DNA of 64,000 nt from contig KQ965759.1 of the NCBI GenBank assembly GCA_001574975.1, forward strand, positions 310,715-374,714, written 5' to 3'. The notes under the pieces were generated by a model. That model was not told where the DNA came from, did no database searches, and saw only the letters and a program-made list of their open reading frames with translations. Origin of the DNA: Gonapodya prolifera JEL478. Its lineage: Eukaryota; Monoblepharomycota; Monoblepharidomycetes; Monoblepharidales; Gonapodyaceae. Within the stretch, counting starts at the first letter, position 1. Every line of letters starts with the position of its first letter. This document shows positions 7,243-56,791 of the stretch, one piece after another. The position numbers and the translations under genes are program-made.

Positions 7243-9120
7243 ATGTCGTCACCCGTCCCCACGCTCTCCGCCCTCGACAGCGACCCCACGCTCTCCTCCG
7301 AAGCCGCGCCAGAGACGGGCGGATTTGCCATCGGATTCGCGGTGCTCGCCTCGTTCATGGGTCTTGTCGCCGTCGTGGCTGTCGTCGTCGCGTTCTGGAA
7401 AGCAGTGCAGGTGAGCTGGGTGCGGTAGGGCGCGGGTTGGGGGATGGGTGCTGTCTGGTCCCTGACCTGGTTCGGTTCGATAATACCCCGGATCACGGAT
7501 GCCCACATCGCCCACTCCCCCACGCGCTCCGTCTCCCACACACTCCCACCTCAACAGTACTCCCGCTGGCGCCGCGCGTACCTCGAACAGCTCATCGCCC
7601 GCTCCGCAGCTGCAAAGACCGCAGTCCTCACACCCGCCCAGCTCAACGCCCTGCCAGTCTTTGTATGGGTCTCTGAGGATCATTGGTGGAGCCAGGTCCA
7701 GCATTTGGTTGAGAGGCCCGGTCTTGCGGATAGTGGAGGGGGTGTTGGTGGCGAAAGTGGTGCGACGGTGACGGTGTCGAGGACCGGGTCGGCAGGCGTG
7801 GGAGTGGTCAGCGTGCACGACGAGGAGGAAGTAAAGTTCTTACCAGAAGACGGCGTCGATACAGTCGCAGTCGCGGGCAAGGGTTCTCTCCTGTCTCGGC
7901 TCGACATCTCTGGCATAACAAGTGCTGATACCGGCGCAACATCATCCAGAGCTGTGTCGTCAAAGAAACTGCCCCGAGGAGGAAAGGACCGCAATGTAGT
8001 CGACCAAGAAGCCGCAAAGTACCTCCCCGACGACGACGCACACGGCAGGTTCGTTACGGACTCTATCCTGCCCAGGTTAGACACTCGCACAGCAGACGCA
8101 GATGCAACCGCCGTCAAGGACGCATTCTTGGACGGTTTGCCATCACCTGAAGTCGACGTCGGCGGCGCGTTTGGAATGGTCGAGTTCACTCGGGGCTCCG
8201 AGGCTACGCTTGGTCGGACTTCGACTGCTTCCCCGAATGGCACGACGACTTACGCTGCATCAACCGCCGTAACACCGCAAGCGACACCAACCCCGATCCA
8301 CCGCGCCCAAAGCGCCACCACCTTCCAACCCCAACCGCAACCGCTCTCACTCCGCCGCAACGTATCCCTGAACCGTCTCGCCACGCCTCCGCCCCGCCCA
8401 TCCTCTGCCAACATGCGCCTGCTGGACGTACCCTCCGTCTCCCGGACGCACACAGATGGAGAGGGAGACGTCTCACCCGTATCACCCGCGTCGGCATTCA
8501 CGGACGCCGGCGCAGTGTCGCCCTCGAACGTGCCACTGCTGAGCGGGATCGCCGTGCCACTGCCTATTTCGGTGGCGGGCAAAAAGGGTAGCGTGGGGAG
8601 TGTGGCGACCTCGTGGTTGGGTGGGGCGGGCGGGGGCGGTGGCGGCGGTGGTGGGGTGGGAAGTCGATCTTCCACGCCCACACCTGCCCTTGACCAAACC
8701 GCCCCACGGTCCCGCTCCACCCACACACGCACCACGTCCTCCTCATGGCGCCTCTCTCTCGCCTCGCTACACCCTTCTCTCGCGGCATCCCTTGTGCCCG
8801 CTTCCACACGCCCATCCACCCCAGCAGCGCACCCCACATGCGCCATCTGCCTCACACCCTTCATACCCCACTCCTCCATCGTACGCACGCTTATTCCGTG
8901 CGGACACGTGTTTCATCGCGCGTGTGTGGATCCCTGGGTGGGCGGGAGGAGTGGGACGTGTCCGGTGTGTAGGGGGGTTGTTGGGGGGACGAGGGGGACG
9001 CAAGGGGTTGGTGGGGTTGAAGGGCAGGAAGAGAGGGAGGGTGGTGGTGAGGATGCAGGTGCAGGAGGAGCGGGACGGGATATGGTGCAGGGGGAAGTGA
9101 GGCTCGCGATTGACCAGTAG
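7243..9120 (+). CDS. Membrane-anchored RING-H2 E3 ubiquitin ligase, 576 aa
   Basis: Two exons, 7243-7410 and 7558-9120, join in phase 0 across a 147-bp GT-AG intron. A single membrane anchor (the GFAIGFAVLASFMGL region, about residues 27-52) lies near the N-terminus. A long low-complexity Ser/Thr/Pro-rich middle and a glycine tract follow. The C-terminal RING-H2 finger spans about residues 484-527: CAIC, then CGHVFH, C and finally CPVC, a C3H2C3 zinc pattern. The layout (anchor near the N-terminus, RING at the C-terminus) is that of ATL-like membrane ubiquitin ligases, which pass ubiquitin from an E2 enzyme to membrane cargo. The substrate cannot be inferred. The linker is poorly constrained, so small errors there would go unnoticed. 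Confidence 0.8.
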
Positions 9121-40305: not shown

Positions 40306-40377
40306 TTCCGACACCGGGAATCGAACCCGGGCCTCATCGGTGAGAGCGATGAATCCTAGCCCCTAGACCATATCGGA
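40306..40377 (-). tRNA. tRNA-Glu (anticodon CTC)
   Basis: The minus strand folds as a 72-nt cloverleaf without intron. The acceptor stem TCCGATA pairs with TGTCGGA (one T-G pair) and the discriminator base is A. The D-arm is GGTCTAGGGGCTAGGATT. The anticodon stem ATCG/CGAT holds loop CTCTCAC, giving anticodon CTC. The T-arm is CCGGGTTCGATTCCCGG, with the internal B-box GGTTCGATTCC. A T-run just downstream (complement of 40293-40300) serves as RNA polymerase III terminator. Confidence 0.95.
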
Positions 40378-45336: not shown

Positions 45337-47062
45337 CTAGAACCCAAGCGACTCCTTCACGAGAACGATGTGGATCCGTTTGGGGCCCCAGGGGTTGGCG
45401 CCCGAGACGACGACTGGGTGATTGGGAGGATGGGGGGAAGGGGGAAGGGTGAGGAAGAAAGGTGGGAACGGTGTGTTAGTTATGAATGGAAGGAAGAGAA
45501 GGGAGACGAGGGACGTGTGTACGCACCGACGTTGTTAGCGGCGGATTTCTCGACGCCGAAGCTGCGGTGTGGTTTGGGTGGAAGGAAGGTGGAACGCAGT
45601 CAGTATCTGTATGGTCACGCGAGACAAAATCCCTACTACTGGTCGATACACGCTCCCCGATAACGAGGCACGTGACCAGGAGAATTCGCCTCCGGCACAC
45701 GCCTCGCTCTGAGTATATTCCGCTCAGCGGTTCACTCGCCTCCGGTCAACACCTCGCTCCGCTCGTATCCTCGGCATTAGACCTCTTTCCCCTTGGACAT
45801 CGACTACTCACACAAGGTGGGACCTCAAGCTCTCCAACGGCACCACGTAGTCATACAACCTCTTCAGCGCGGCGTCCTTCCCACCCTCGACAATCTTGTT
45901 GGATCCGGCGAGCAGGACCAGGTTGCCGGAGGGACCCGTTCCGGCCGTCTTGGTCCCCGTGAGGTCGGCGATCACGAACACGCCGTCGGAGCCGATGGCG
46001 TTGGGGGAGGAGAAGAAGTAGTCGGCGGCCTATCGGTGGTGGTGGGAGGGTTGGGATTGGGGTGAAGGGGGTTGAGGGTCGAGGGTTGGTGAGGGGAAAG
46101 GTTGTGAAGGTTGTGAAGGTTGTGAAGGTGAAGAAGGTTGTGAAAGTGAAGAAGGTGAAGAAAGTGAAGAAGGTGATGAAAGTAAAGAAGGTGATGAAGG
46201 TGATGAAGGTGATGAAGGTGATGAACGTGCAGAAAGTGAAGAAGGTAGAGACGTGAAGAAAACTCACGTATCCCTCTTGGCGGAGCTTGGCCTGCTTGGC
46301 CTGGTCCTGTTCGGCGAGGAGGAGGGCGTGGTAGTTCTTGTACTTGTCGGTGGACTGGAATGCGAGAGTGGGTGGATGGAAAGTGAGTCGATACGGACAT
46401 GGGTAACCAGGAGACAAGGACAACCAGGAGACAAGGACAAATCGCTTCACGATTCAATCGCCTCCGGCAGCTGGTACGCTCCGCGTGGGATAATTCGCCT
46501 CCGGCGAACACCTCGGTCAGCGCTGTCGCGCTTAGGCCTCGGAGTCCTCGCTACGCTCGGACGGCTCGACTCACCTTGAGGAAGTCAATGAATCCGACAT
46601 CGACCGCGGAGCTGGAGTATCCGTTGGCTGAGAATCGGGTCGCGATGGGATGGGATGGCGGGTTTGTTAGGGGTTTGTTTGACACGCTGGCAGAAACACA
46701 CGTTTTGCGCCAACTCACAGACACTGGCACCGGCAGGAGCGATGGACTTGAGCTTCTCGAGGGCCTCCGCCTTTGTGGCGACTGGGTAGACGACGAATCC
46801 AGCCTTTGTGAGCCCGTCGACGGCCTTTTGGAAGAGCGCGTCGGAGGCCGCGGGGGAGTACTTTGCGATGTCGACTGGATGGGGTGCGATGCGAGATGGG
46901 AAGGGGAGTGGGAGTGGGATTGGATTGGATGGAATCGGGTGCGAGGGGAGTGTGAGGAGTGCGATGGAAAGGCGTGGAAGCAAGGGAACACGCACTGTCT
47001 TTGATGAGGGCGTTGCCGGCGTGTGCCTTTGCGAGCTCCGCTCCGGTGAAGGGAATCGACAT
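45337..47062 (-). CDS. LUD-domain protein, short paralog, 230 aa
   Basis: Seven exons on the minus strand: 46996-47062, 46719-46874, 46575-46627, 46268-46354, 46029-45812, 45561-45527 and 45413-45337. They total 231 codons. The protein opens MSIPFTGAELAKAHAGNAL. It has VGFIDFLK, ADYFFSSPNAIGSDG, ADLTGTKTAG, LLAGSNKIVEGG and LESLRSHLVFGVEKSAANNV, and ends NPWGPKRIHIVLVKESLGF. This is the LUD (lactate utilisation, DUF162/LutC-like) domain; bacterial relatives serve in L-lactate oxidation, and the fungal role is unknown. Exon lengths 156, 53, 87 and 77 equal those of the paralog at 54873-56791. Its 253-nt exon is here split 218+35 by an extra 250-bp intron. Confidence 0.85.
45562..45811 (-). other. 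Extra intron in LUD gene with repeat motif
   Basis: A GT-AG intron (GTGAGT...GCAG) absent from the paralog. It contains two TCGCCTCCGG motifs 50 bp apart (45686 and 45736 on the plus strand), each followed by an ACGCCTCGCTC-like or ACACCTCGCTC-like word. The same motif pair, 37 bp apart, occurs in another intron of both LUD genes. Confidence 0.75.
46090..46250 (+). repeat. Imperfect GAAGGT-type microsatellite in LUD intron
   Basis: About 160 bp of GTGAAGGTT/GAAGAAGGT/GATGAAGGT units fill most of the 238-bp intron 46030-46267. Confidence 0.85.
46458..46504 (+). repeat. Paired TCGCCTCCGG motif, LUD short paralog intron
   Basis: TCGCCTCCGG occurs at 46458-46467 and 46495-46504, within the intron 46355-46574. 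The equivalent intron of the other LUD gene has the same pair at the same 37-bp spacing (55987 and 56024, opposite strand). Confidence 0.7.
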
Positions 47063-48990
47063 GGTGATGTTAGAGTGAGTGAGTGGTGGAGTGATGGAGT
47101 GAGAGAGTGGAGAGATTGCGGGCGGATGTCGCCTTTAAAGGACACGGGATCTCATAAGATTATGAGATGGTGCCGAGACAGGGCGGGTGGCGGGTGATTA
47201 GTTGACCCGCGGTGCAAACAGTACAGCACTTACTCTCCAAGATTATGGCGCACTAAAGGACGCCATGGCATAAAAACTCCGCATTATTCTGCCAAGTGCG
47301 CATTTCACTCGCCACTTGACTGCTAAGATGGCGACACATTGCGCCGGCGAGTCCTTTTCGACATATATCTGAGCAGCTTTGCCACCGTTCTTCCGGAGTG
47401 AACACTCAAGTGGAGCATCGACAAAAGATATATCCAATAAACATAGCTTCGAAGGTGTCCGATTGCCCAATGGATTCTAATGACCAACACTACATCACTT
47501 GGATACAACGCTTCTGTTGAAGTTTGGAAAGTACTTAATAAAACGAGGGAGATAACGAGCCGACAAGTTACAGTCCACGCCACAATGTTCGACAACACCG
47601 TGCAACCAGGATAACGATGATTGCCACAGACAAGGTGACCAGCCGAGCACCTCGCGACCGTCACACAAAATTAAATAGAAGCGCCTTGCTGACTTCATCG
47701 TAGGTTCACTTGTTCAGACACTCCTCGCCCAACCACCTTGATGATGAGACTTTGTCGTCGGAAGAGCTGCAGGCATCAACAATCGTAAACCAGGTGGTGT
47801 TCGGCACAGGGTCTCTTTCTTAACGAGCACCCTGCAACGGTGGCCAAAAAAAGAAAATTTGAATTTGAAGTGCCAGTCATCAGAGATTGGCCAAAGGTGA
47901 ACAAGTCTGTGCAGTTCATTTGATTCGTCAAAACGTGCTTCTTTAGCAGAACGTATTCTTGTGCAAGTCATTTGATCTCCTGAGATAAGGATTGAAGAAC
48001 GTCTTTCGAAGGTGTCGCTGGATGCCTTACCGCTCACAATTCAATTCAATGAATTCTTGGTCTTTCACACACCAATTGGAGCGAGATTCTGCGCGTAGGT
48101 TGGTGCGGTCTGTCGACATGATGCAGCCAGAGATTCAGTTTAATGTTTTTATTACCACTGTGGGGTGCTCGCCAGTTCTTGTAGCATTGTGTGAGGGGCT
48201 GGTTCTTGGTCCTACGATCGAGGGCGCTGCACGGTGCTGGTGGTGATGGGGAACCATCCGATCCTCACAGGGGTTGGAGTGTGGTAAGTGGGGTCGATCG
48301 GCGATGGAGGTGGAGTCGCGGGAGAGATCCGAGGGCCAGAAGAGACCACGCGAGAGACTAGAAGCGAGACGTGGTCGGGGAGATGGGGAAATGGATCAGA
48401 GTTTCACCGGGGGAAGTCTAGTCGTATTCTCTTGGTCACTACGATACAGGTCACACTAAAATACACCCCGATCCTAATCCTTATCAAAGTCCGGGGCCAA
48501 CGGTCCGTTCAGTTCCGCGATACGGTCCGTTCCGTCGCTAGGAGGTTGGGCTGAGTGTGTTGTGAGCCGTGTGGGGAGAGTTCGAAGTGCGGGGTGGGGG
48601 TCACGTGACTTAGCGAGCTTGTCAGTGCCGAGACCGAGCCCCTGACATTGTGCGGGCGGGCAAACGGAGTGATTCCTCGAGGCATTGCACTGGGTTGTCA
48701 ATCTTTGACATAGGCTAGAATGGCAGCGCTGTCCTGACCTTCAATACCTTTTTTTTTTGTTGGGTGGTCCAAAACTAAAAAATTCATACCGCACCAACCG
48801 CCCGTTGGATAACCCCGTTCCCCAATCAAAAATTCATGGAGATAGTCACATCTTTCGTTTGAGTCTATCTTCGGGGGCCAATCGCCGAGTCGAAGTTGGA
48901 CCTTTGTCTCTCAGCGGTATCGACGCCATTGTGATCTTTTTCGGTATTGGCTATCATTTTGGGTTCCGCTTATGTCAAGCACGCCTGGAA
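47063..48990. other. Intergenic, no gene recognised
   Basis: The first ~150 bp should hold the LUD promoter. The rest is of mixed composition, with no recognised domain, RNA gene or repeat. Confidence 0.35.
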
Positions 48991-48999
48991 ATGAGCCCT

Positions 49000-50383
49000 C
49001 GGGTGGTGGTGAAGAGTCTCCGCTGTCTGTTTGACGTTTCAACACAGGCACCGACAGTTTTTTCCAAGACATCGGCCCTTCGGCTGTTGCCCTCAAATCA
49101 CCAGCTCCGGTTAGCCCACGAGGGCGTCCGAAGAAGGTCGCTGGACCTTCTCCAATCAATGAAAACGTCTTTGTCCCATCGACACCGGTAACACCACTGC
49201 CCTCGAGGCCGGTACGTCGCCCGTTGGGTCCCCGCGAGACACCATTTCGTGCAAACAGACAATTTGCACGTTAGGAATTGAATGTATGCGTTCACATGAC
49301 CTGGAGGACGACTGGTTTGTTAATCGTCCGGCCAATGTTCTCAAACGCCGACATAATGAACCGGCGGACCCTCACGAAGCAAAGATTGAAGCACTCGCCA
49401 TCGTCAAAGAAAATCTAGAGGGATTTGTTCATCATGTTCTCAACGAAAGATCCAGAGTAGACGGTGTCCGCTTGCAACAGATCCTGATTGACGAGGCGCC
49501 GTATCATACGGCTGTAATATTGAGCCCGTGCTTTCAATTCACATCGCATATGAAGATAATAGGAAGGCGCTCGGACCTTTCAACTTTTTGCGCGCAAACC
49601 TGGGCAATTTGGGTTTGGACGACGTGCCGAAGATCCCACTATTCAAATTCTATCTGACACTATTGCCAAGGAGTAGACGTCGTTTTGGGTGAAGAATAAT
49701 GGGCCGTTGAACGTTGGGAAAATGTAACCGGAAGTTGTCGATGACATCAGAGTATCAAAGTACATTGAGGATATTCAGCAGCATGCACCGGTGACGAGGT
49801 CCGTCGTGGATATCTTGACACCCCGGTATACACGCAGGCAAACTGATTATCGTGATGACCATGTACAAGAGGACAGTAGTGTCAAGCGGTTCCAGAAGTT
49901 TGTGATTAATATCCCACCCAATGAATTTTTTCAGCGAGCGGTGCAATTATTTGGCGACTATAATAGGTCTCTACCTTGCTCCGTTGGTTGGTGTCAACAA
50001 ACAGGTACGTGATTGCTGCAAATTGCCAATATCTTTGTGTGTCACTAAGTCCCTGTTTTATGCACGTTACGATAGGTGTACACATTTTTAAATGCAATGT
50101 GTGTCACGCAGTGATACAGCGAGACCTGGAGAACTTTAGAAGAACTTCAAAAGGCAATTTGGCACGATTCAAAGCTCTTGTACAAAAACATGGACCACAT
50201 TCCTTCCGCATAATTGCGGATAACGTGAACTGGAAAAAGGCTGGGAAAGCTGTCAAAATGACAGCAGTGACAGCTGTCCGTCTTCAATATTTGAACCCGG
50301 GGGATGAAGATGGTCCCCTTAATGAACGCAAGCCAAGAAAGAAGATAGAGCACATGACAAAGAATACCGCATCGGCCTTCTGA
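49000..50383 (+). pseudogene. Decayed AT-hook coding region, origin unclear
   Basis: The DNA-binding AT-hook core PRGRPKK is readable near 49115, within a Pro/Ser-rich context. Open stretches without known domains follow at 49286-49657 and, after a plausible intron ending near 50079, up to 50383, which is basic and carries a CxxCH pair. The frame is interrupted several times. I do not recognise the family, and it could derive from a mobile element rather than a host gene, so I leave it unclassified. Confidence 0.35.
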
Positions 50384-51557
50384 TGCGATCTATAGCAACG
50401 CATTATCCTTAAAAGCGGGTACTCCATTACTACTTACCTGATGAAGTGTGCCCATATGGACCACCACCGCAACAAAGAAATATTTCCACTTCATTTACGT
50501 GCTGTTAAGCATTCCACTTGTAGAAGCCTCATTCTCGTAAATTTTATTTTGGCTTGTTACATTGACTCATACATAAGATCTTACTTGAACTCTTGTTACG
50601 TCTGCAGGTGACTGATTCCATTAATTCTGAAATAGGTTTTGAAGTCAACTTCAAAGGATCAGCCTTCGGCGAGAACATGATGACATTACTTCTCATTCAG
50701 AGAAGCACATGCAAGCCGCAAAAGTAAAAATTCATTTACCACTATCGGCAAGACGCTTGTTTCTCTCCATGGGCCCTGCCTGTATGCTCGTCAATGAAAC
50801 CTGGTAGTTGATGAGAAGCCCCACTGAAATCTGTCGAGCCGTCGACCAGCTAAAAGGGGCACCTAGACGCATCGGTCGCAAATAGAAGTAAGGCCTTGCA
50901 GTCTCACAAGAGGACTACTGCTATGTACCTATTTGCATCACGCACCTGACGTGTTGCAAGAAGAAGTACAGTGCTTCACGTGAAACCGAGACATTGTCTT
51001 GGCGTTATCAGTCTGTGATCGACACACTGTGAAGAATCCACAGTCACAAGGCGCGCGTGTCGCAAAAGGATGTAGATACCCCGGGGGTTGAAATGACGAC
51101 TTCACGTCCCTGTTTTCACTCAACGCCGCACATATTTCGCAAGGTGATTCGACACAAGGGCTGGGAGACATCAATCAAGCGCGTGAAGAGGGGGTCAGCT
51201 TCATTTTTATCTCTAATCTGTCTAGACGATTGAACCCGGTGGCTCTTTATATCTCCAAAGAATGCTTTACTATTAAATTCAGAATAGCAACAAGCCTGCG
51301 CGAATTAACTTCCAACCGGTGCGAATCAAATCATGCCGTTCATACTCAGCTTGGTCCTCGCACATGCTAAATCTGCGCTCGCTGGTGTAATTCAAACCAC
51401 AGGCGTAAGGAGCGAGCTATCCCTCCACGCTAGCGAGAGCCCTAACCGCCAGAAGGCTATGACCGAACTTTGTGGATCTGATTCATGTAATACACACTGA
51501 AAATACTACTCCAAACTTCCCGGCTGAGACCAGCCACCACTTCGCGCCCCTTTCCAA
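50384..51557. other. Intergenic, no gene recognised
   Basis: AT-richer DNA with only short open stretches. Nothing recognised. Confidence 0.4.
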
Positions 51558-53735
51558 TCACAAGCTCGACGCCTCGGCAGCCGTGGCCAGTTCCTCCTCC
51601 TGAGCGACGATCTTGGAGCGGTACCAGTACTGGATGTGGGGTGTAAGAGCAAAAGATGTTGCGGTACGACGCATGCCGGTTGTTAATGAGATTGGCCGGG
51701 CAAAGGAATCGCGTGGGAGTTGGGAAAAGGACAGGGAGAGGGAGAAGGACATAGGTTAAATTGAAGCAATGAACGCGAACGCATCCTCCACTCGTCTCCT
51801 CGACGAAGAAAACGTGCTCCAGTAACAAGTCGGAACCCGCCAACGGTTGCCACAATCACTTATTTGACACCCCTGATACTCAGAAAGAAAGCCCATTCGA
51901 CAGACCCCGAAGCAGCTATGTCGTGAAAATCCACCATAAGCACTCATTGGACGCATCGACAAAAGTATTGTCCAGGAAGCAGTCACAAGACGGGGCCAGA
52001 TTGCCAAAGAGAGTTTCGTAACCCAGTGCGAACGTTTCATAAAGAAAAACAGAGTATAAAACTCAGGGACGGTCGTCGACAAGAACTCAAGATTCTCGGC
52101 GGCAAACACGTGTGCCTTTTGGAGCACCTCATGAGCAACACCGCTAGCATCTGTTGAGATTGAAAAATGGAGCGGGGATGCAGCACTTTATATCGGTCGC
52201 AAAAAGTGTGGTCCCAAAGCGTCAGAGGTACTCAGAGGGCTCACAGGCTCCACGTCACGATCTCGGTGCACAGACAGATCGTCTGATAGCGCTACTCGAC
52301 AGTTCACGCCGTGCGCCACTCGCCAAGAGCACCACGTCCGTGTCGGAAAAAACAAAGCGAAATCCGGGCAATGCAGCAGAGGTACCACATCCCCAGCGAT
52401 TTATGACAGAAGCGTGGGGAACCATCATGCACCAAGGAGATAAATGAAAAGCCTGCGCCCTTGGTTCAGAGGAGCAGTGAGTGCCGCGTCCCGTCCCGTC
52501 AAAAAAAGCACTTGAAGAGTCTGGACCAAAAAAAGTTCCCGATTTTGTGTCCCATCCGGTTGATGCCTCGCGGCACAGATGAGCGAGGGCAAGGAGTCCC
52601 GAAGACGGAAAGCAGCATGCCTCGACCATTCACGTAGAATCGCACGTAATATCATGCGTCAGTGTGAGCGTCTACGTTTGGTCACAAAAGATGTTGGTTC
52701 TCCTCAACTGGACGACCATGGCCTGGGCATTCGACTCCTATGTTCGTGTCCGCTCTATCGGATGTATGGGGCAAGAGAGACCCCGCGAGGCCCACAGTAG
52801 ATGCAAGAAAGAGATCTGCGTTGATGGTCGTCGTCGTGCTGGACAGCCATGTCCACAGCGCCCGAGTTCCGTCACAAAATGGTGTTCGCTTCCATTACCT
52901 AGACGTGCGCTCCAAAGCTCCGCCAACCCTTCGCGTCCCATTCACCACTTCGCCGTCCCTTTTCGATTCCCAAATCCTCTTGAGTGCCTAGGCGCACTCC
53001 AGCTGCCCTCGACCAGAACATCCCCCCCGCCCCTCCAGGATACCAACCCACCTGGCAAGAGCAGCAGAGTAAAAAGAACACGTAAATCCCAGCGCCGATG
53101 TAGCACGACATCCCGATGTTCTTATAATTGACGTCGGTGCCCGTGGTCAGGAGGAGCATCTCGGAGCCGGCGGACCAGAGGCCGCCCAGGATGAGCTGGT
53201 CGGTGCGAGGAGAAGGAGGAGAAGGAGGGGAAGAGAGGGGAAGCGAAACGGGGCGGTGAGTGAGGGGGCAGATGATGGAGAGTAAGAGCAAGTGGGCAGG
53301 AGTCGTGTAGGTCGAAGAGAAGTCTCAACAGCGAGCTTGGAGAGTTAAGTGTTGCTCCTTCGAACACCAACTCCAACTGTCCGCACCGGTCTATCACATG
53401 GAGCTTCCAGCCTCGCCAGTGACTATGCCGAGAACTCACCAGGAACCATATTCCGAAGAAGCTCGTGATGGTGCTGTCGTTCCGCAAAGTATGACACAAA
53501 GCTGGTCAGCTCACGTCGCCCCACATACGAGACGTTCACCCACCAGCACATGGAGCAGTTCGGGCCAATGAGCGACAGGCGGCGATTGTATGCTACAGAG
53601 GGGACGGTGGGTCGGGTTAGCGCTCGATTGGGAAGCGAGGAGGACAGCGCGACACGCCACGTCGAGGTCGGAACGGGAGAGGGAGGAGCGAAGAGATAAT
53701 ACTAAGTATGGATGGGGGTGAGACTCACGAGGCAT
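51558..53735 (-). CDS. Small membrane protein, 106 aa, 7-nt first exon
   Basis: I reconstruct five minus-strand exons: 53729-53735 (ATGCCTC), 53529-53592, 53440-53473, 53052-53195 and 51558-51629. Phases agree, giving 107 codons with a TGA stop. The protein opens MPPYNRRLSLIGPNCSMCWW. It has two hydrophobic segments (ITSFFGIWFLLILGGLW and IGAGIYVFFLLCCSC) around a loop with TTGTDVNYKNIG, then an acidic tail (VAQEEELATAAEASSL). The family is unrecognised; the topology suggests a two-pass integral membrane protein. The last intron (51630-53051, 1422 bp) is several times longer than any other here and may hold an insertion. Exon 1 is very small, so the start is the least certain part. Confidence 0.6.
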
Positions 53736-53779
53736 GTTCGCGTGCGTGTCGGTGCGGGAGACAACTGTGAGGTGAGGCT

Positions 53780-54560
53780 TATGCACAAGAAATGTGGCAG
53801 GTGCAAGGGATTTTCACTAGCTTGCTGAATGTCTCAGCTGACCCCACACTCAACATTCCACATTGTACTCTCTAATTTTCAACCCCCAAAGCCTTCAATA
53901 TATGAAATGCTGGAAAAAGAAAGGGTGAACCCTATGTGCAGCAGCTCCCAACACTGAGTTAGCATTTGTGTGAACCGTTCATTACAGTAATGCAAGACAA
54001 CGTCCAACAGATCAATATCAAAAGGTCTTGAAGCATAGCAAGTAGTTTGAAGGAAGGTTCAGCCTTGATGGCACACTGCGGCAGTGTGCTTTTTTGCAGC
54101 AAAGCATTGCAATCCACATCACAATGGAGATCTTGCACTACAAAAACAACCATGGACATTGTTGACAAGCAAGCATCCAGGCACTTCAAAATAAATTACA
54201 GAACCAACAAAAAAAATGCCTTTGAGCAAATGAAGCAATTAAAGTGGTGATATGTCATAACAGCAGAACACCATGGTATGCAGGTCACACAGTGGATTGT
54301 TCCCTGCAACGTCACAAATGTCACGCAATGGTATCAATTGACACTTCAAAGTGATTGCGTGGAGAGAAACTGTAACAACATTGTTGCAGTTGCCAAACAA
54401 GTGGGGCTGCGAAAAGAAAATGCGCAACACAAGAAATTGTGACATGTGTCCAGTATAATGAAAAACGGCTTCCGCGGTTAAATTGTGCAAAGTTGGCAGT
54501 TGAAATAATGACGCGTGGTCAACAATGCCCAGTGAGACCGTCAACTTAGTAGGTTAATAT
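53780..54560. other. AT-rich, CpG-poor segment, possible decayed element
   Basis: Between the small membrane gene and the second LUD gene the sequence becomes AT-rich and poor in CpG, like the transposons at 40.4-44 and 58.7-62.9 kb. No transposase or terminal repeats are recognised. It may be a non-autonomous or relic element. Confidence 0.35.
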
Positions 54561-54872
54561 GTCTTCAGCGAGAACCAGGTTCAGTTCTCGCCATCACGAA
54601 CGAAACGTTAACTCCAAAATAATATTGCGTGATAATCAAACCTCGCGTACCTGGTACCAACAAAAATCTGACTGATGCGCGGCAGAAGTAGAATACGCGA
54701 CAGGGTTCTCTGTGAGGGATCTTACCAAACGACGCCACCATTTTCCATCTGCATCCGCCATCGACACGCACACCCCGCCCAGGCTTGACTGCACTCTGCT
54801 CACTGCATCCAGGCACCTGCAATCGCACTCCATCGTCACTCTCTTCTCTCCTCTCTCTTCTGACTCTCCGCC

Positions 54873-56791
54873 ATGTCCGAGCAGACTCCAATCAAAAACT
54901 TCTTCAGGCGTCTGTCACAGAAGTTCAACCTGTGCGTACTCTCTCTGCCATCACACTCCCGCTCGTCCCCACTGACCATTCCATTTCCCCGCCACTCTCC
55001 CCATTGTGTGTCTTCGCCGCAGTGACAAAAAATCCACTCCAGCTGCCTCGTCCCCTCTTGCCGCAGTGAAGGAGGACAAACCAGCGACCGCTGAACCCGC
55101 GGGTGAACCATCATCAGCGGATGCTGCTGCTACCAAGGAGGTCGAGGTCGCCGCCGCCCCTGTCGCGGAGGCCCCCGCCACGCCTGCTGCTGAACCAGCC
55201 AAGGAGGCAGAGACACCTGCTGTCACCGAACCCGGGAAAGCTGTCGAGGCTCCCGCGGCAGAGACCGCTCCAGTGACTGAGGCGGCAAAAGAGGAAGTGA
55301 AGGAAGAAGTCAAGGAAGAGAAGAAGGAGGAGGCGAAGGAGGAAGCCGCCCCAGCTCCCGAAAAGAAGATCCCGGTCTCTGCCGCCGAGTTCCAGAAGGA
55401 GTACAAGGACCACCCTCTCATCGCCGACGGTATGTTTTTACCTCGCCTTGCCATCACATGATGAAACCGTATTAACATTCACCCCTCTTACTCTCTTCAC
55501 CTCTCTTCACCTTGCCATCACATGATATACCGCGGTAACATCCACCTCTCTTCATCTCTCTTCACCTCTCGCCCCACTCACAATCCAGCCGACTTCGCCA
55601 AGTACAACGCACCCGCCTCTGGCGAACTCTACGCCGAGGCCGTCGAGGGGCTCACCAAGGCCGGATTCATCGTCCACCAGGTCGCCACCAAGGAGGAGGC
55701 ACTCGAGGTGCTCAAGGGACTGGCACCTGAGGGGGCTAGTGTGTGTAAGTTCATGCTTTGGTTGTGGGCGGTCGGTGGAGGAAGGGGTATCGAGGAGGAT
55801 CAAGTGGCTGACTACTTCGCCGTTCTCCATTCTCGACAGCTAACGGATCCAGCACTGGTCTTATCGAGGTCGGGTTCATTGACTTCCTCAAGGTACGTCG
55901 TCGTCTTTCTGACGAAGTCTGGATTGCGAGTGCGAAGCACACAGGACCGAGTGGTGTGCCGAGGGCGAAGCGCGAGTGATGGGCGGACGGAGGCGAATTA
56001 TCGCGCACGGAGCGTATCAACTACCGGAGGCGAAAGGAATGCGGAGCGGGAGCGATGTATCCTTGTCTTTGGTGTTCAACGTCCACATCGACTCATATCC
56101 CATCTACCCCGTTCTCGCATAACTGCAGTCCACNGACAAGTACAAGAACTTCCACGCCCTTCTCCTCGCCGAGCAGGACCAGGCCAAGGCCGCAAAGCTC
56201 CGCCAGGAGGGTTACGTGAGTCTCTCTTCCCGAGCTTCTTCGTCGTGCTGCGTTCCCCACTCATACTCGTACTTCACCCTACCACCCCGGCCCTCAACTC
56301 TGCCCCCNCCCCCCGCCCCCCGCCTACCCAGTCCGCCGACTACTTCTTCGCCTCCCCCAACGCCATCTCCTCCTCCGGCTCCCTCATCACCGCCGACCTC
56401 ACAGGCACCAAGACCGCGGGCCTCATCGCCTCCTCCAACGTCGTCTTCTTTGCCGGGTCCAACAAGATCGTCGCTGGGGGTATCGAGGAGGCGCATAAGA
56501 GGGTTGAGGACTTTGCGGTAAAGGTGGAGAGCTTGAGAGCCCATTTGGTGTATGGCGTTGAGAGATCGGTTGCGAACAACATTGGTGGGTTCTTCTATTC
56601 GGGGTGTGAGGGTGCAAACCCTCTGTTGGGGAGATTTCTGCGGTGCAGTGTGTTGACACAAATCTCTTTCCATCCTCTCCAATTTCGTCGCGGACCACCT
56701 AACCCACCAACCAGTCGTCCTCTCCGGTTCCAACCCATGGGGTCCCAAACGCATCCACGTCGTCCTTTCCACGGAGGCTTACGGATTCTAA
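54873..56791 (+). CDS. LUD-domain protein with acidic N-terminal extension, 363 aa
   Basis: Seven exons: 54873-54931, 55023-55429, 55589-55744, 55840-55892, 56129-56215, 56332-56584 and 56715-56791. They are in phase and total 364 codons ending TAA. Residues 1-20 (MSEQTPIKNFFRRLSQKFNL) form a basic amphipathic start. Residues 21-140 are an Ala/Glu/Pro/Lys-rich, probably disordered stretch absent from the short paralog. The LUD domain follows: FAKYNAPASGELYAEAVEGL, VGFIDFLK, ADYFFASPNAISSSG, ADLTGTKTAG, FFAGSNKIVAGG, HLVYGVERSVANNI, and ending NPWGPKRIHVVLSTEAYGF. Two ambiguous bases occur, one in a codon (56134) and one in an intron. Function in fungi is unknown; bacterial LUD proteins act in lactate oxidation. 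It lies opposite in orientation to its paralog, 7.8 kb away. Confidence 0.85.

Follow-up and report, generated by a model that had tools for sequence, protein, structure and literature searches.

A family of intron-resident hairpin arrays in Gonapodya prolifera and its probable decayed member in an extra intron of a LUD-domain gene

The window analysed here, that is, the whole stretch of 64,000 nucleotides of the Gonapodya prolifera JEL478 genome (assembly GCA_001574975.1, 47.56 Mb in total; contig KQ965759.1, positions 310,715 to 374,714, hereafter C29:310715-374714), contains two LUD-domain genes that differ by one intron, and this extra intron carries traces of a repeat made of very short hairpins. 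The minus-type gene (45337..47062, minus strand) was delineated by translation, Pfam (LUD_dom, E 5.6e-19 for its protein) and a gene model, and has seven exons of 67, 156, 53, 87, 218, 35 and 77 nt; the plus-type gene (55043..56791, plus strand; translation and gene model), whose 5′ end is not settled, has exons of (70+), 156, 53, 87, 253 and 77 nt. The exons were placed by hand, and in both genes the frame is open to the stop and the introns are GT-AG. The lengths of 156, 53, 87 and 77 nt, which the initial annotation had described as matching between the two genes, were confirmed by open-frame translation, and so was its statement that a 253-nt exon is split into 218 and 35 nt by a 250-bp intron: this exon is uninterrupted in the plus-type gene (56332-56584), and the extra intron of the minus-type gene (45562..45811, minus strand, GTGAGT...CAG) falls inside a Val codon.

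The two genes had been linked by a 10-mer, TCGCCTCCGG, said to be absent from the rest of the window. This was right: five exact copies were found, at 45686, 45736, 46458 and 46495 (plus strand) and 56024 (minus strand), against 0.14 expected in shuffles. The pair reported in the extra intron (45686 and 45736) is exact, as is that of the minus-type gene in an older intron common to all four LUD genes of the assembly (46355..46574, minus strand; translation and alignment); in the plus-type gene, where a second pair had been claimed, the same intron (55893..56128, plus strand) holds one exact copy and one variant with a mismatch, at 55987. To search for the repeat we built a profile from 18 seeds and ran nhmmer on a 264-kb sample, composed of the window and 20 ten-kb loci picked successively along the motif positions on contigs C1 and C2, with the reversed sequence as control. 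The profile matched the shared intron of the minus-type gene at 46438..46575 (minus strand, best E 4.3e-26), where three hairpins can be read on the minus strand: AGCGC-GACA-GCGCT with a GNNA loop (46519..46532), TTCGCC-GGA-GGCGAA with a GNA loop (46494..46508), which holds most of the 10-mer, and ACGC-GGA-GCGT, also with a GNA loop (46476..46486). In the plus-type gene a diverged array was matched at 55988-56034 (E 8.6e-4). The extra intron was matched in two adjoining stretches (45647..45756, minus strand) with a best E of 1.8e-5 in the 264 kb, the best value in the reversed sequence being 7.2, and by its sequence it appears to be one decayed member of a large, intron-resident repeat family.

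Two minus-type and two plus-type LUD copies were found, a divergent pair of both types lying on C29 and another on C93, so that this region is either a duplication or an assembly with two haplotypes. A decayed plus-type fragment on C27 (locus L083, C27:420326-420544), read by eye, has a frameshift and no extra intron. The extra intron had been assigned to one paralog; its absence from the plus type holds (0/3 copies, the C27 fragment counted), but both minus-type copies carry it, and it measures 264 bp on C93. The two minus-type copies differ at 17/130 fourfold sites, and therefore the extra intron is not very recent. Two further features of the shared intron were recorded. Its C29 minus-type copy contains a 17-bp tandem duplication (TTGTCCTTGTCTCCTGG twice, window 46407-46440, minus strand), which is single in the C93 copy. 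Moreover, the plus-type copies of C29 and C93 (locus L079) are identical in the 3′ part of this intron (window 55893-56215) and share the position of an N within one codon (CCACNGAC); this suggests gene conversion or an effect of the assembly.

The suggestion that the motif common to the two genes belongs to a dispersed repeat was borne out by the whole assembly, which contains 714 copies of TCGCCTCCGG, the backwards pattern having 77. Longer modules, each enclosing a hairpin, gave sharper contrasts: GAGGCCTA-N8-22-GACCGAGG has 362 copies (control 1) and GGAGGCGAATGATC-N8-24-GAAT has 49 (control 0). By eye, the first 100 listed motif places group into about 70 clusters, from which some 450-500 motif loci may be expected genome-wide. 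At E<1e-3 the profile matched 65 stretches of the 264 kb and 0 of the reversed control. Copies are diverged, the mean column identity of 16 aligned array cores being 52%. A viral source was considered, as a 14-mer of the repeat met 25 viral stretches, and dropped, the best profile match there having an E of 0.061; the longer module pattern had no exact match in viral and prokaryote collections. The proposal that the extra intron was copied from the older LUD intron was also rejected as regards this specific source, since other introns match equally well. Outside its own copy, the extra intron is best matched by the intron of a permease gene (L075), followed by the shared LUD intron: the local scores of the C93 copy were 55.0 and 49.5, and those of the window copy 46.5 and 45.5, respectively.

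To place the arrays relative to genes, repeat stretches of the 264 kb were merged at E<0.01 (n=29) and compared with a home-made gene model trained on the same sample, which recovered the minus-type LUD gene exactly. The initial annotation had proposed to search the genome for a ~90-bp unit around the motif pairs and to count the copies within annotated introns; in our sample 21/29 stretches lie in predicted introns (18 sense, 3 antisense), none in predicted exons, and the other 8 outside predicted genes. Of the sampled sequence outside these stretches, 16.4% is predicted intron. Introns with arrays (n=20, three antisense models counted) are long, with a median of 508 bp vs 134 bp for 173 others. 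Since the gene model mis-oriented at least one locus (L013), our statement on strand rests on Pfam hits, and wherever these support the host gene the array is in sense, in 12/12 gene families: LMBR1 and RRF (L013, one per strand), ubiquitin (L014), Cyt-b5/acyl-CoA dehydrogenase (L015), F-box (L018), HIG_1_N (L019), glycosyltransferase 2 (L023), short-chain dehydrogenase (L024), MFS (L025), EF-hand (L027), EF-Ts (L028) and LUD. The LMBR1 and glycosyltransferase 2 matches are below the Pfam cut-off; for RRF the downstream exon alone is known, and there Pfam flipped the antisense call of the gene model to sense. The array of L015, 'intergenic' in the model, lies between Cyt-b5 and acyl-CoA dehydrogenase open reading frames (ORFs), both on the array's strand according to Pfam. 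The direction of intron-to-intron matches (1426 plus vs 12 minus) is not an independent test of orientation, because loci then considered antisense had been left out: the 12 sampled-locus introns used in the hairpin and similarity analyses omit L010, L013 plus and L023 plus, and also L016 and L024.

A second set consisted of 20 loci of 900 bp, chosen by eye for a repeat-like look among the listed hits of GTGAGT-N0-30-CGAGGCC. An exon junction could be placed in 16/20 (L056, L058, L066 and L072 were left out, L058 being a LUD copy); Pfam queries skip six of these 16 (L057, L062, L065, L067, L070, L073), and the reading frame of L062, L067, L073, L074 and L075 was set by eye, overriding the automatic choice. 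Of 20 junction proteins submitted to Pfam, eight (L018, L059, L060, L061, L069, L071, L074, L075) have a domain alignment that crosses the exon junction, within F-box, YPEH2ZP, short-chain dehydrogenase, saccharopine dehydrogenase, P450, PAF acetylhydrolase, TLC and xanthine/uracil permease domains. These array introns thus interrupt conserved domains, and their removal is needed to make the protein.

The loops of the hairpins follow a narrow rule. Among hairpins whose stems have 4 bp or more, we counted in 31 array introns (10.2 kb) 41 of the C-GNA-G type against 1.5 in dinucleotide shuffles and 17 of the C-GNNA-G type against 1.8; the loops that would represent the other strand were absent (TNC 0 vs 0.9 expected, TNNC 0 vs 1.1). 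These counts are not independent events, copies being related by descent; the 58 hairpins have 11 distinct loop-proximal 4-bp stems, and CGCC-GGA-GGCG, the hairpin of the motif with which loci were found, accounts for 14/58, the C-module hairpin having also been used in selection. At the level of sequence the arrays conform to the GNA/GNNA mini-hairpin rule (C-GNA-G or C-GNNA-G on a G-C-rich stem). Over the whole 264 kb the excess is modest for all GNA hairpins (160 vs 130-152 in shuffles), those with a C-G closing pair numbering 78 vs 39-52; the strong excess is confined to array introns. In L060, within the first 30 intron bases, the hairpin GTCCGAGCGTAGCGAGGAC is inverted in place and its flanks keep their orientation. 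The arrays in general, those of L018, L025 and L028 among them, include two hairpin types with symmetrical purine mismatches (GA/GA, GGA/GGA) between G-C segments, for example GTCC-GA-GC-GNA-GC-GA-GGAC, where tandem G-A pairs may form.

Inside the introns the arrays occupy the 5′ and middle parts. In every one of 34 array introns, LUD copies included, similarity between genes stops short of the acceptor, by 24-322 nt. Where introns had not been picked by their donor (n=15), it begins 0-70 nt past the donor (median 25; within 10 nt in 2/15) and leaves an unshared 3′ part of 54-322 nt (median 120). It begins at base 0 in 14/16 of the donor-selected junction introns, a set chosen for GTGAGT near the repeat. 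The pattern behind this set, GTGAGT-N0-30-CGAGGCC, has 114 hits vs 61 backwards, and the mirrored CGAGGCC-N0-30-ACTCAC 55 vs 47. Over its first 60 nt, the shared LUD intron has 97% identity with the corresponding part of the intron of L059, in an unrelated YPEH2ZP-family gene, and 83% with the intron of L060.

Taken together, these data make it probable that the genome harbours a large family of modular arrays in which conserved linkers connect coding-strand hairpins of the C-GNA-G/C-GNNA-G type, and that these arrays are oriented in sense, begin near the 5′ splice site and end before the 3′ part of the intron. Several observations weigh against this reading. Nine stretches lack a settled host strand, namely the antisense models of L010 and of L023 at 5677 and seven stretches outside predicted genes; for L010, L011 and the L012 stretch at 7758, the closest Pfam-matched ORF (Pirin, serine carboxypeptidase and aldehyde dehydrogenase) is on the opposite strand, 0.7-1.4 kb off, the array not being placed within those genes. 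Among the 18 sense stretches, five take their strand from the gene model alone (L016, L022, L012 at 1855 and two in L020); Pfam queries, made for L020 at 4896 and L022, gave no match. Splicing of the array introns is itself deduced from the continuity of frame and domains. The donor is rarely adjacent to the module BNNNNNCGAGCNGTCCGAGCG, which has GTGAGT directly upstream in 3 of 35 copies, the remaining ones being preceded by GAAGAC (9) or CAAGAC (3), the end of another module, or by various sequences; therefore the repeat is modular, with a variable 5′ edge and no fixed donor. Stem compensation is partial: from 98 of the 100 listed hairpins of one module (362 in total, two tandem cases omitted) we analysed 90 of lengths 13, 14 and 16, and in the 63 distinct ones 19 changes affected both sides of the stem, 25 pairs were GU and 40 were broken. 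Shuffles with swapped halves paired as well as the real hairpins in 1, 74 and 282 of 2000 trials, depending on the length class. Finally, the arrays show no gain in folding over shuffled sequence (12 introns, first 230 nt; mean z −0.51 for RNA, −0.29 for DNA), and the extra intron alone gave z values of +1.86 as DNA and +0.24 as RNA. RNAalifold on the 16 cores found only 7 pairs, one of them with changes on both sides. A global RNA or DNA structure of the arrays was thus rejected.

How arrays and introns came together can be explained in different ways. It is possible that the repeat is a true introner, inserting into exons with its own donor and so making a new intron, in which case the minus-type LUD intron is a gain. 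The sequence GTGAGTCGAGC stands at the donor in five loci (the shared LUD intron, L056, L057, L059 and L060, L056 having no placeable junction), similarity starts at the first base in most of the GTGAGT-chosen introns, arrays are in sense wherever Pfam backs the host gene, the exon is uninterrupted in plus-type LUD genes, and a P450 intron of 92 bp (L069) consists of repeat for 65%. Gozashti et al. (2022, PMC9860276) define introners as introns that resemble one another although their genes, in the same genome, are unrelated, with similarity starting within 10 intronic bases of the 5′ boundary and extending also near the 3′ boundary. Matched host genes here do have Pfam domains of different families, but none of the 34 introns shares its 3′ end with introns of other genes: the last 80 nt gave 11 matching pairs, seven of them among LUD copies and four with a length of 14-22 nt. 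A fixed 5′ end at the donor, raised by the shared donor sequences, is weakened by the 3/35 count, and when empty sites were sought for two non-LUD genes, their own exons were the sole matches. Near-identical full-length copies, as expected for fungal introner-like elements, do not agree with the 52% mean identity of the 16 cores. Terminal inverted repeats (GTCGA...TCGAC), noticed by eye near both ends of some introns, were dropped, as TCGA also occurs in internal linkers. Because similarity at the 3′ boundary fails and the donor does not mark a constant edge, we classify the family as an introner-like, intron-resident hairpin array and do not file it as an introner.

An explanation that may hold to the same degree is that an old intron was lost in the plus-type LUD lineage, and that the array is a later passenger growing in standing introns. 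The restriction of similarity to the 5′ and middle parts of introns agrees with it. So does the shared LUD intron, whose 5′ half is unlike between minus- and plus-type genes while the 3′ half can be aligned; therefore, array content changes within a standing intron. This explanation requires, however, a precise loss in the plus lineage, and by itself leaves unexplained the sense orientation and the start of the arrays near the donor.

It is improbable that the hairpins are a functional intronic RNA that selection maintains as a signal for splicing or processing. The sense orientation, the recurring loop consensus and some paired stem changes would suit such a role, but the tetraloops are GNYA in 13 cases and the RNA-stable GNRA in 4, and the arrays lack any folding excess. 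Between the minus-type C29 and C93 copies the array parts differ by 4.3% and 8.1%, about like whole introns (1.7-9.9%); with no clear slow-down, selection on the arrays was discarded. In 114 kb the only Rfam family reaching its gathering score was tRNA. The tRNA gene lies at 40306-40377 of the window, on the minus strand (RF00005, 56.7 bits). As for a chance motif or a plain microsatellite, the few sampled 10-mer copies outside any array (L009, L021, L026, one in L028) are what could be cited for it, and the counts of 714 vs 77 and 362 vs 1 with reversed controls refute it.

For the extra LUD intron, it is quite possible that intron and array were born together. It is almost as possible that the array later colonised an already existing intron, as the family similarity falls short of the 3′ splice site; some other origin appears unlikely. 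With regard to the family of hairpin arrays, modules might spread from intron to intron in the orientation of transcription, most simply via single-stranded non-template DNA, or an RNA copy, folding into hairpins, and the arrays would then be edited by hairpin-templated repair or inversion. Single-stranded DNA suits the loop rule better than RNA does, and in a transcribed intron the non-template strand would be the exposed one. Hairpin-templated repair and inversion would yield paired stem changes and in-place inversions without functional selection. Whether DNA mini-hairpins alone form a self-propagating unit, with folding of the non-template strand, transcription-oriented copying and stem-keeping repair or inversion, lengthening old introns and sometimes seeding new ones, seems doubtful to us.

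The origin of new and long introns is an old open question, and to our knowledge introner-like elements have been described from few fungi. The family offers a lead on intron growth or origin, although the newness of the extra LUD intron is not proven thereby. It links intron content to a short, recognisable DNA structure with a chemically known loop rule (GNA/GNNA). With a few related genomes and RNA reads it could now be tested how hairpins of single-stranded DNA, the direction of transcription and the growth of introns are connected. A search for introners from end to end would discard such a class as an insertion within an old intron.

Among the open-licence papers listed by our literature searches, none described such hairpin arrays, or a genomic repeat family of GNA/GNNA mini-hairpins. 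Like introners (PMC9860276), the arrays form a dispersed family with hundreds of copies in introns of unrelated genes, and in some copies the common sequence sets in right at the first base of the intron; unlike them, their similarity stops before the 3′ splice boundary, the copies are diverged and modular, and a by-eye look established neither target-site duplication nor terminal inverted repeat. An enrichment of introners in aquatic lineages has been reported (PMC9860276). In G. prolifera, ribosomal protein L3 has its best matches among PDB chains of yeast and other fungal ribosomes, one of them named 'yeast L3'; the genome encodes a radial-spoke protein family (best exon E 8.7e-15), and we take the host to be a fungus with a motile cilium, probably aquatic, which would be a further likeness. 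The introner-like elements of Dothideomycetes (PMC4457414) and the symmetrical stwintrons of Hypoxylaceae (PMC8469720) are also fungal and intron-bound, and are described as structured or inverted-repeat in character, the stwintrons being genuine introns on the coding strand only. Those elements are, however, whole introns, many of them near-identical, with one terminal inverted repeat, whereas the arrays share only the 5′ and middle part of the intron and are chains of tiny hairpins.

The repetitive hairpin and double-hairpin elements of mitochondria (Allomyces, sponges; PMC2800124) are likewise dispersed short hairpins, at times in tandem. They are mitochondrial, mainly intergenic or in rRNA, and reported to be kept in transcripts and to vary mostly in their loops; the arrays described here are nuclear, lie in predicted spliceosomal introns and vary in their stems. 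As regards the loops, very stable DNA mini-hairpins such as d(GCGAAGC) combine a loop of GNA or GNNA with a stem of two or more G-C pairs (PMC4686876), and the arrays, known from sequence alone, have the same C-GNA-G and C-GNNA-G loops with G-C closing. What in that work is oligonucleotide chemistry is found here as a genomic repeat family.

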